Program-made: the position numbers and the translations under genes
From: a virus
DNA: 25,967 nt
Strand: one strand, 5' to 3'
IMG/VR virus record: IMGVR_UViG_3300021197_000820
Location: 1-25,967 of that record
The notes under the pieces: generated by a model
Database searches by the model: none
What the model was told of the DNA's origin: nothing
Seen by the model: only the letters and a program-made list of their open reading frames with translations
Part shown: piece by piece, positions 1,917 to 3,641 of the stretch
Numbering within the stretch: position 1 is the stretch's first letter
Layout of the letters: each line of letters starts with the position of its first letter

Positions 1917-2139
1917 CAGCCACATCCTCTACATAGCCCTGCCCGTCACAGGCAGGACACTCGCCGCTGCATGTGTCGATGTATCCGCTGCCAGTCCTGT
2001 AATCAGGCCGTCCATATTCAATCTCGCAGACGCCCTGGCCCATGCACTGTTGGCACTCCAGCAGTTCTTCCCATAAGCCTGGGTGGCGCATGACACGGAC
2101 ATAGCGCGGTGCATCGAACTGATCCCTATCCATGCTCAA
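1909..2139 (-). CDS. small DnaJ-type zinc-finger protein
   Basis: This is a 76-aa protein with two CxxCxGxG motifs ('CQQCMGQG' near residue 29 and 'CPACDGQG' near residue 61), the signature of the cysteine-rich zinc-binding region of DnaJ/Hsp40. Two further cysteines lie between them. It has no J domain, so it is not a full chaperone. Free-standing proteins of this type occur in phages, where their function is generally unknown. It sits between two methyltransferase genes and overlaps both, so it is co-translated with them. Confidence 0.75.
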   Translation of the reverse strand: MSMDRDQFDAPRYVRVMRHPGLWEELLECQQCMGQGVCEIEYGRPDYRTGSGYIDTCSGECPACDGQGYVEDVADE

Positions 2140-3214
2140 CCGCCTTGATCGTCAGGCCGATCTGCATGGCGATTTGCGGTACGATGGCGTTGCCCAGCCC
2201 CTTGAGCCGTGCTGCCCTTTGCTTCACGCCGGTTGCTACTCTTGGGATGTCTCTAGGTTCGTCCAACCAGGTGGATAACCCATCAGCCATTCCACCCATG
2301 CTGGGTTCAACGACCCGCCTGCATGAGTCGCCAAGGTCACGCTGTTCCTCGCTAATTCGGCTGGGCTTTGCCCGTTGTCCTTGTAATCTCTCGCCGTTGG
2401 CGTCGGCCACATCTTCACATCCTGTCGCAAGTCCCTGCTGCCGCCTCCCTTGCTGGGCGGTCTGGTCGTGCCTTGCGATATCGCCGCTGTCGGTGTGGCC
2501 CACATTTTGGGCTGGCCACTCTGCTGCGTTTCCTCGTCCGGCCAGAACCTTACGAACCGATCCAAGCTCACGCTCTTGCCGGTCAGTGGGTTGACCGCTT
2601 CCGTGCTGGTGCTGTTCCGCTCTATGTGATCGCTGGCTGTCGGTGTCGGAATCATTTGACGTGGGTTCGCCCAACTCCCAGCATCCCGATTCCGCATTGA
2701 TGGTGACATCTGGTTCGCCGTCGCTGTCGGTGTGTGCAGCAATAATCCAGATCCTGTCGCGTCGGTGCGGGGCATCAACGGCGCAAGCTGGAACAACAAA
2801 CGGTTGGACGGCGTAGTTTTCGCCTTCCAAGTCAGATAGCACTTGGTCGAGGCCCAAGCTGATGTGTCCAGAAACATTCTCGAAAACGCACCAGCGAGGG
2901 AGTTTTGCTTGCACAATGGTGAAAATTTCTGGCCAGATGTGACGGTCATCTGCCGCGCCTCGCTGCTGCCCGGCAACACTAAATGGCTGGCAGGGATACC
3001 CTGCTGTAAGGATGTCGCAGTCTGGAACAAGTCGTCTTGGGTCACTCGCTAACTCCTTCACGTCTTCTGCAATCGGCACGTCAGGCCAATGCTTGGCCAG
3101 CACCTGACGGCTCCATGCCTCAATGTCACAGAACAGCACCGGCTCTGACAGGCCAGCCCACTGAAAGCCCAAGGCAAAGCCGCCAATGCCTGAACACAAA
3201 TCAACATGACGCAT
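2126..3214 (-). CDS. dcm: DNA (cytosine-5-)-methyltransferase
   Basis: This 362-aa protein transfers a methyl group from AdoMet to C5 of cytosine in a specific site. Motifs appear in order: motif I 'DLCSGIGGF' (5-13), motif IV 'GYPCQPFSVAG' (72-82, catalytic Cys75), motif VI 'ENV' (112-114), motif VIII 'HRRDRIW' (150-156) and the C-terminal motif X-like 'GLGNAIVPQ' (339-347). Residues about 160-330, where the target-recognition domain should be, are unusually hydrophilic and low in complexity (many 'HTDS', 'VADAN' and Gln/Arg runs). That stretch coincides with a second long reading frame on the same strand. The ATG at 3214 follows directly on the VRR-NUC gene; the longer frame to 3274 runs into that gene. 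It probably guards phage DNA against restriction. Confidence 0.95.
   Translation of the reverse strand: MRHVDLCSGIGGFALGFQWAGLSEPVLFCDIEAWSRQVLAKHWPDVPIAEDVKELASDPRRLVPDCDILTAGYPCQPFSVAGQQRGAADDRHIWPEIFTIVQAKLPRWCVFENVSGHISLGLDQVLSDLEGENYAVQPFVVPACAVDAPHRRDRIWIIAAHTDSDGEPDVTINAESGCWELGEPTSNDSDTDSQRSHRAEQHQHGSGQPTDRQERELGSVRKVLAGRGNAAEWPAQNVGHTDSGDIARHDQTAQQGRRQQGLATGCEDVADANGERLQGQRAKPSRISEEQRDLGDSCRRVVEPSMGGMADGLSTWLDEPRDIPRVATGVKQRAARLKGLGNAIVPQIAMQIGLTIKAVEHG
2236..3045 (-). CDS. overprinted ORF inside dcm: PTPTA-repeat phage protein
   Basis: A 269-codon open frame lies entirely inside the cytosine methyltransferase gene, same strand, different phase. It begins with GTG at 3045, and AAGGAG (3053-3058) lies 7 nt upstream, a near-ideal ribosome site inside the methyltransferase coding sequence. 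The product has repeated PTPTA-type motifs at residues 104-109, 132-138 ('IPTPTAS'), 182-188 ('MWATPTA') and 212-219 ('MWPTPTAR'), a central 'CYLTWKAKTTPSNRLLFQL' and a C-terminal 'LNPAWVEWLMGYPPGWT'. I recognise this composite from phage proteins encoded next to dcm genes; their function is unknown to me. Under this frame dcm encodes its hydrophilic variable region. This could be real dual coding or a relic. Confidence 0.7.
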   Translation of the reverse strand: MTQDDLFQTATSLQQGIPASHLVLPGSSEARQMTVTSGQKFSPLCKQNSLAGAFSRMFLDTSAWASTKCYLTWKAKTTPSNRLLFQLAPLMPRTDATGSGLLLHTPTATANQMSPSMRNRDAGSWANPRQMIPTPTASDHIERNSTSTEAVNPLTGKSVSLDRFVRFWPDEETQQSGQPKMWATPTAAISQGTTRPPSKGGGSRDLRQDVKMWPTPTARDYKDNGQSPAELARNSVTLATHAGGSLNPAWVEWLMGYPPGWTNLETSQE

Positions 3215-3218
3215 GAGA

Positions 3219-3641
3219 TCAGCCACCCTCTGCCTCACACATCTGTCTGATGATGTCGGCCTGGCTGGTGCCACGCAGATGCAGCAACGGCTTTAGATAA
3301 GCCTCTACATGCGCCAGGCGCTTGGCAGTGACGCAGTACACACCGCAGCACTTCAGGCGCTCTTGTATGTCTTTCTGGTTTGCTGACAAGCTGCCGCCCT
3401 TGGGGCGCTTCAACTCAATCATGATCGGGCCTTGGTGCGTCGGGTCTTTCCAACCGTGTTGAGGTACAAAGATTTCCAGATCAGGCCAGCCAGCCGCCAT
3501 GCCCAGCTTCTTCAAGCGCAGTTTATATGCAACGTGGCGCTTGCCCTCGTTGGGCGAGTGATGAAACACACTGCCCAGCGGCAAGGCGACCTGGAGCCAA
3601 TGAACTACATATGTTTGCAGTTCATCTTCAGTCATCAGCAT
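3219..3641 (-). CDS. VRR-NUC domain nuclease
   Basis: This is a 140-aa PD-(D/E)XK-type nuclease of the VRR-NUC family. Visible elements are 'HHSPNEG' (about 27-33), 'GWPDLEIF' (51-58, containing the catalytic PD) and 'MIELKRPKGG' (73-82, the ExK motif), then 'LSANQKDIQERL' and a hydrophobic strand. Its length matches stand-alone phage VRR-NUC proteins. The family cleaves structured or branched DNA; the substrate here is not known. It is the second gene of the leftward early operon, overlapping the Cro-like gene by 14 nt and ending just before dcm, so a role in replication or recombination intermediates is likely. Confidence 0.9.
   Translation of the reverse strand: MLMTEDELQTYVVHWLQVALPLGSVFHHSPNEGKRHVAYKLRLKKLGMAAGWPDLEIFVPQHGWKDPTHQGPIMIELKRPKGGSLSANQKDIQERLKCCGVYCVTAKRLAHVEAYLKPLLHLRGTSQADIIRQMCEAEGG

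Follow-up and report, generated by a model that had tools for sequence, protein, structure and literature searches.

RESULTS

A long open reading frame lies within a viral methyltransferase gene

Can a single stretch of viral DNA encode, in two reading frames, two proteins that complete one another? This question is raised by a dcm ORF at positions 2126–3274 on the minus strand of an IMG/VR virus record of 25,967 bases; this whole stretch was analysed and is called the window. The outer frame encodes a C5-cytosine methyltransferase, here called alpha (2126–3226, minus strand), whose start is either the GTG at 3226 or the ATG at 3214, the latter being the MRHVDLCSGIGGF consensus start. Alpha matched PF00145 at 4e-37, over residues 21–191 only, and phrog_363 at 3e-66. 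A second ORF, beta, lies in the +1 frame wholly within the dcm ORF (2236–3045, minus strand). It consists of 269 amino acids and begins with a GTG codon that is preceded by an AAGGAG Shine-Dalgarno (SD) sequence (3053–3058, minus strand) at a distance of 7 nt. The initial annotation had described a 269-codon gene inside dcm on the same strand and in a different phase, with this start and SD sequence, repeated PTPTA motifs and the C-terminal sequence LNPAWVEWLMGYPPGWT, and all of these features were confirmed. Beta matched the PHROG 1008 profile at 1.5e-35, and all 29 aligned relatives matched this profile too; searches of Pfam and NCBIfam gave no match.

Alignment showed that the N-terminal segment of beta (amino acids 1–102, 2740–3045, minus strand), which is conserved and contains ...GAFSRMFLDTSAWASTKCYLTWK..., overprints motifs IV–VIII of alpha. 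Further downstream, the alpha variable region (2201–2725, minus strand) is weakly conserved and predicted to be disordered (pLDDT about 35), and its substitutions peak at alpha codon position 1.

Two neighbouring genes on the minus strand were also noted. A VRR-NUC-like nuclease gene (3219–3641; weak Pfam match, phrog_824 at 5.8e-28) is directly upstream of the alpha start and overlaps it. On the other side, the 193-amino-acid product of 1344–1925 matched residues 198–379 of 458 in phrog_799 ('DNA methyltransferase'); from this profile match we infer a second putative methyltransferase adjoining the two-frame one.

The nested frame is kept open across homologous dcm genes

One explanation of the nested ORF is that it is an untranslated by-product of constraint on the dcm protein. 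Two observations favour this view: the +1 frame of the single gene is poor in stop codons, and some of the beta N-terminus is simply what conserved dcm motifs give when read in the +1 frame. When synonymous codons of the window dcm were permuted, a +1 ORF of this length or longer was found in 140 of 20,000 permutations (p 0.007), and shuffling the order of the codons gave one in 33 of 20,000 (0.17%). The claim that a random frame of such length would occur at a probability of roughly exp(-12.6) was therefore overstated, because the +1 frame of this dcm is stop-poor. Considered by itself, the window sequence makes the nested ORF only moderately surprising.

Comparison with homologues gave a far stronger result. 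The +1 frame was open in every one of 123 distinct complete homologous dcm ORFs, in which the longest +1 ORF had a median length of 255 codons (74% of the gene) compared with 50 codons for the +2 frame. Synonymous permutation of alpha predicted an average of 6.3 stops in the nested region, and none was seen in any of the 123 genes. In the mirror test, permuting the beta codons predicted 7.6 stops in the alpha frame, where again none was seen. A subset of 32 loci was picked solely by the dcm (alpha) N-terminus and was thus unselected for the nested frame; these loci gave the same stop-avoidance result.

The dcm genes with an FVEWMMGLP motif, which were first picked as 'ordinary' controls, turned out to bear a nested +1 ORF themselves, so plasmid-borne methyltransferases of ordinary restriction-modification (R-M) systems were chosen as negative controls instead. 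In three such genes the +1 stops were at the level expected by chance: 22 seen and 23.1 expected for one beside a HaeII-family endonuclease, 27 and 27.5 for one beside an NgoBV-family endonuclease, and 21 and 22.1 for one on a Lactobacillus plasmid. Thus, the check on stops in the nested phase of homologous dcm genes found them absent in the nested-type family and at chance level in the R-M controls. It is this conservation across homologues, rather than a single-sequence probability, that makes the overlapping gene certain.

Both frames are under selection

Substitution rates at the three codon positions of alpha were estimated from 29 independent pairs. Rates at positions 1/2/3 were.068/.034/.255 ahead of the overlap,.057/.028/.104 in the first 95 codons of the overlap,.201/.103/.121 in the variable region,.119/.061/.073 in the last 30 codons of the overlap and.032/.032/.228 past the overlap. 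The silent third-position rate of alpha was therefore 2.5-fold slower in the early overlap (0.255 to 0.104), where both frames are constrained. In the variable region the fastest-changing position was alpha position 1, which is the wobble position of beta. Position 1 exceeded position 3 in 19 of 25 informative pairs in this region (sign test, p 0.007) and in 0 of 28 outside the overlap. This substitution pattern identifies the nested frame as the main coding frame across the methyltransferase variable region, and the alpha variable region as mostly a by-product of the beta frame. We also found an SD sequence of at least 5 nt at 66% of the 123 nested starts, compared with 6.5% of internal start codons in the +1 frame.

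From these data we conclude that beta is translated and under selection, as shown by sequence evolution. The untranslated by-product reading was rejected and is all but ruled out: stops were absent from each of 123 genes where 6.3 were expected, alpha third positions are slowed, substitutions in the variable region peak instead at the wobble position of beta, SD sequences are enriched at nested starts, and ordinary dcm genes have chance-level +1 stops. Two claims of the initial annotation thus held. One was that this is a real overlapping gene, which is supported by stop avoidance, SD sequences, codon-position rates and hundreds of homologues; the other was that the nested frame dictates the odd variable region of the methyltransferase. 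The check on codon-position conservation that it had proposed gave a pattern that fits two translated frames.

Motif IX is encoded in the nested frame

Alpha met the criteria for a C5-cytosine methyltransferase in motifs I (DLCSGIGGF, 3176–3202), IV (GYPCQPFS, containing PCQ with the catalytic Cys, 2978–3001), VI (ENV, 2873–2881), VIII (HRRDRIW, 2747–2767) and X (LGNAIVPQIA, 2168–2197), all placed on the minus strand by alignment. Motif IX was not found in the alpha frame, either by alignment or when the beta C-terminus was compared with its own alpha frame, which at the place of motif IX reads WxxEPxVGRVAxGIPxRVDRLK. The end of beta has the consensus LNPxWVEWLMGYPxGWT, and hhalign matched it to the motif IX segment of in-frame dcm proteins (prob 95.6, E 1.3e-8, 24 columns). 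This places motif IX in beta at LNPAWVEWLMGYPPGWT, amino acids 246–262 (2260–2310, minus strand). The in-frame dcm proteins align there with M.HhaI 273–307 (motifs IX–X), an alignment of the second domain that is weak on its own. Thus, at the sequence level, alpha is without motif IX and beta has it. The suggestion that beta is a 'partner protein' therefore held and can be made precise, in that beta carries the motif missing from its host ORF; that the two form a joint enzyme is inferred.

AF2 modelled alpha confidently only at residues 1–166 and 343–366, with a pLDDT of about 35 for residues 175–342, and the catalytic lobe matched the structures of M.HaeIII, M.HhaI and DNMT enzymes. For beta alone the mean pLDDT was 57.9, and only a hairpin at residues 70–90 and a helix at 248–255 were interpretable. 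Foldseek found no match for the beta fold, and no solved structure was found for beta either. Since beta is poorly modelled and has no fold match, AF2 alone cannot say which frame holds the recognition domain.

Beta contains variable cassettes at the target-recognition position

Between its N-terminal segment and motif IX, beta is built of repeated cassettes (all minus strand): LHTPTATANQ... (cassette 1, amino acids 103–131, 2653–2739), IPTPTASDHIE... (cassette 2, 132–181, 2503–2652), WATPTAAISQ... (cassette 3, 182–212, 2410–2502) and WPTPTARDYKD... (cassette 4, which together with the C-terminus spans 213–269, 2239–2409). Nearly all relatives have such '(W/L)PTPTA' cassettes, of 30–45 residues, at the target-recognition position. 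We cut 226 beta proteins into 675 segments starting with a (W/L/F)xTP motif and found that beta grows by an average of 28.7 residues per extra cassette. The segments fell into 26 similarity families of at least three members, which occupy differing positions in different phages. These family counts are rough because one family obtained by single linkage is very large (361 members). The position of the cassettes, their variability and their fusion to single-chain enzymes, described below, suggest that they are exchangeable recognition modules. Recognition is inferred on these grounds because the AF2 model of beta is weak and Foldseek gave no fold, and the targets are unknown.

Natural rearrangements redistribute the motifs between the two frames

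Four arrangements were distinguished among relatives. In type A, which is the window type and the majority, alpha has motifs I–VIII and X, and beta has the cassettes and motif IX. In type B, found in actinophages, alpha includes motif IX, and the variable region is spanned by a +1 ORF with LPTPTA cassettes; several cassette families are common to types A and B. The type B variable region also changes fastest at alpha position 1 (.321/.208/.230 for positions 1/2/3 versus.157/.108/.381 after it). Because the actinophage-type alpha has motif IX, supplying this motif cannot be the only job of beta. In type C, represented by loci L193 (2744–4044) and L198 (2237–3522), alpha ends right after motif VIII, and a single beta frame encodes the cassettes together with motifs IX and X. 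Past that point stops accumulate in frame 0, such that the outer frame is no longer open over the variable region once it is not required to reach motif X. Type D consists of four single-frame genes (L267, L277, L287 and L311/L329) in which a beta-type cassette and the catalytic domain are fused as one frame, the cassette occupying the position of the target-recognition domain (TRD). Thus, it is shown at the sequence level that motif X can move to beta and that a single chain can include cassettes at the place of the TRD. At this level, in all four types the pair always adds up to one full set of methyltransferase motifs.

The type C loci bear on the possibility that programmed frameshifting from the alpha into the beta frame makes a single chain, which in the window type would also require a shift back for motif X. 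In favour of this possibility, L193 and L198 would need only one shift, near the alpha stop, to join motifs I–VIII to the cassettes and motifs IX and X. However, the window type would require two shifts, the beta start and its SD sequence are conserved (66% versus 6.5%), and selection acts on the amino acids that the beta frame encodes in its N-terminal segment, upstream of any such shift. We therefore consider frameshifting very unlikely.

The nested gene is widespread and accompanies a methyltransferase at all loci checked

A tblastn search with beta found 90 phage records at E < 1e-3. Beta homologues were present in at least 594 IMG/VR stretches and in 275 confirmed stretches of GTDB genomes, covering Firmicutes, Proteobacteria, Bacteroidota, Spirochaetes, Planctomycetes, Chloroflexota and others. 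The system also reaches Archaea, as plasmid pMETHO01 of Methanomethylovorans hollandica (L386, 1201–1992) carries a dcm with a nested +1 ORF ending in TLNPVWTEWLMGLPTNWTALK. The beta homologue was in the dcm +1 frame at all 85 of the first loci and at all 83 further loci from other genomes and phages, and no stand-alone beta gene away from dcm was found among them. Nesting is not always strict, since beta ends some bases past the outer stop at a few loci (e.g. L021 and L079). The proposed check for independent homologues of the nested protein therefore did find homologues, yet always inside or overlapping a methyltransferase gene.

These findings bear on whether beta, as a real overlapping gene, encodes an independent protein, such as an anti-restriction or regulatory partner, rather than a subunit. 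Its lack of a Pfam or NCBIfam match or of a recognisable fold, as well as its own start and SD sequence, would be consistent with such a protein. However, the motif IX of beta, together with motif X in L193 and L198, complements exactly what alpha lacks, the cassettes are fused into single-chain dcm proteins, and beta was never seen away from dcm at the 85 and 83 loci. An independent role is thus an unlikely alternative to a subunit.

The nested protein had been annotated before, as PHROG 1008 'DNA methyltransferase', as 'g55 internal gene' (gp56 of Paenibacillus phage Shelly) and as 'Mte8-like protein' (E. coli phage K1ind3). These annotations give it no function or call it a second methyltransferase, and neither motif IX nor a split enzyme is linked to it in those records. 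In the literature that we searched on overlapping or nested genes with a methyltransferase in phages, we found no description of the arrangement, only a passing mention of 'Mte8', no experiment on a phage alpha–beta pair, and nothing on how general it is, on cassettes or on the nested frame taking over the coding burden.

Some further loci were noted. In Mycobacterium phage Llama (genes 74/75; L087, 1028–1787), the annotation divides alpha between two ORFs that are not in the same frame, and the nested frame matches within the second; this could be a real split or a sequencing error. A dcm on a Clostridioides difficile plasmid (L383, 1201–2274) has an in-frame motif IX, yet also a 118-codon +1 ORF where 51 codons were expected. 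An ORF as long was seen in 0 of 300 permutations, and it ends in ...SLLDILEDEVHEKYFLSKEKVEKILSN, a different sequence type. A Bifidobacterium locus (L381, 1201–2646) is a weaker case of the same kind. The +1 ORFs of these last two loci may represent another overlapping family.

DISCUSSION

The locus is likely to encode one two-subunit C5-cytosine methyltransferase in two overlapping frames; assembly of the subunits, target recognition and an anti-restriction role are inferred. In this model, alpha (frame 0) would provide the catalytic, SAM-binding lobe with motifs I–VIII as well as motif X. Beta, made in the +1 frame from its own SD sequence and start, would provide an N-terminal segment that contacts alpha, motif IX and, at the target-recognition position, the cassettes. 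Together, both chains would form the complete enzyme and methylate the DNA of the phage itself, most likely as protection from host restriction, and exchange of cassettes would change or widen the sequence that is recognised.

A bolder reading is that, across phages, these genes make up a class of C5 methyltransferases whose specificity is written in the second frame by the beta cassettes, the alpha variable region being a frame-shifted by-product with no recognition role. We see no more reason to accept this reading than to doubt it. If it is true, such phages would have a stretch of DNA that is free to shuffle specificity while the catalytic gene is kept open to motif X.

In phages and bacteria, long, deeply conserved overlapping genes on the same strand are uncommon and difficult to demonstrate. 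The phage overlap described here is backed by several hundred homologues from many phyla, including one on an archaeal plasmid. It accounts for the apparently senseless variable region in so many phage dcm genes and for the inconsistent labelling of dcm fragments as methyltransferase or hypothetical protein. It can now be tested whether the second-frame cassettes set specificity, for which the single-chain genes L267, L277, L287 and L311/L329 are candidates, and why both frames stay together. Also testable is whether phage methyltransferases cloned as one ORF seem inactive only because recoding broke beta. As a practical matter, the second subunit is lost when such a gene is codon-optimised.

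One likeness to a single-chain system is to the multispecific C5 methyltransferases of Bacillus subtilis phages, which appear in reference titles in PMC4190342 and PMC4081073. Enzymes of this group have modular, exchangeable TRDs. They and the window system share phage self-methylation, which for the window is inferred, and a series of modules that follow motif VIII and precede motif IX; in the window these are four cassettes with a putative role in recognition. The Bacillus phage enzymes are single chains in one frame, whereas the window modules are of another sequence type and lie in a second, overlapping frame. The in-frame actinophage dcm genes (e.g. L274 and L262) have the same catalytic domain, and their variable region is likewise overlain by a +1 ORF encoding LPTPTA cassettes, but alpha itself encodes their motif IX (FVEWMMGLP), and the nested ORF stops before it.

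Two-subunit enzymes are also known. M.AquI has an alpha subunit with motifs I–VIII and a beta subunit with the distal variable region and motifs IX–X (PMC3404938). L193 and L198 show this split. In contrast, the window keeps motif X in alpha and does not meet the AquI-type criterion, and its overlap covers nearly the whole beta gene.

M.EcoHK31I (YGGCCR), from an E. coli R-M system, consists of two polypeptides that are both required, the larger having motifs I–VIII and X and the smaller motif IX (PMC3404938, citing Lee et al. 1995). Its beta ORF is reported to lie inside the alpha gene in another frame (Lee et al. 1995). The window pair has the same distribution of motifs, with motif IX in a smaller beta, and if the report is correct it shares the nesting of the beta gene within the alpha gene in another frame. 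By motif distribution and nesting, the window pair thus has an alpha/beta arrangement of the M.EcoHK31I type; homology and a requirement for both chains are not established. M.EcoHK31I is a precedent for the arrangement. The differences are that M.EcoHK31I is a single bacterial R-M enzyme with its TRD described in alpha, whereas the window system is phage-borne and widespread, being common in phages from most phyla of bacteria. Moreover, the TRD position in the phage system is occupied by beta cassettes, with beta as the main coding frame over that region, and in the phage family either chain can bear motif IX or X. We conclude that this is a probable split enzyme of a known kind, and that, relative to the literature that we searched, the new part is its wide spread among phages, its cassettes and the shift of coding to the nested frame.
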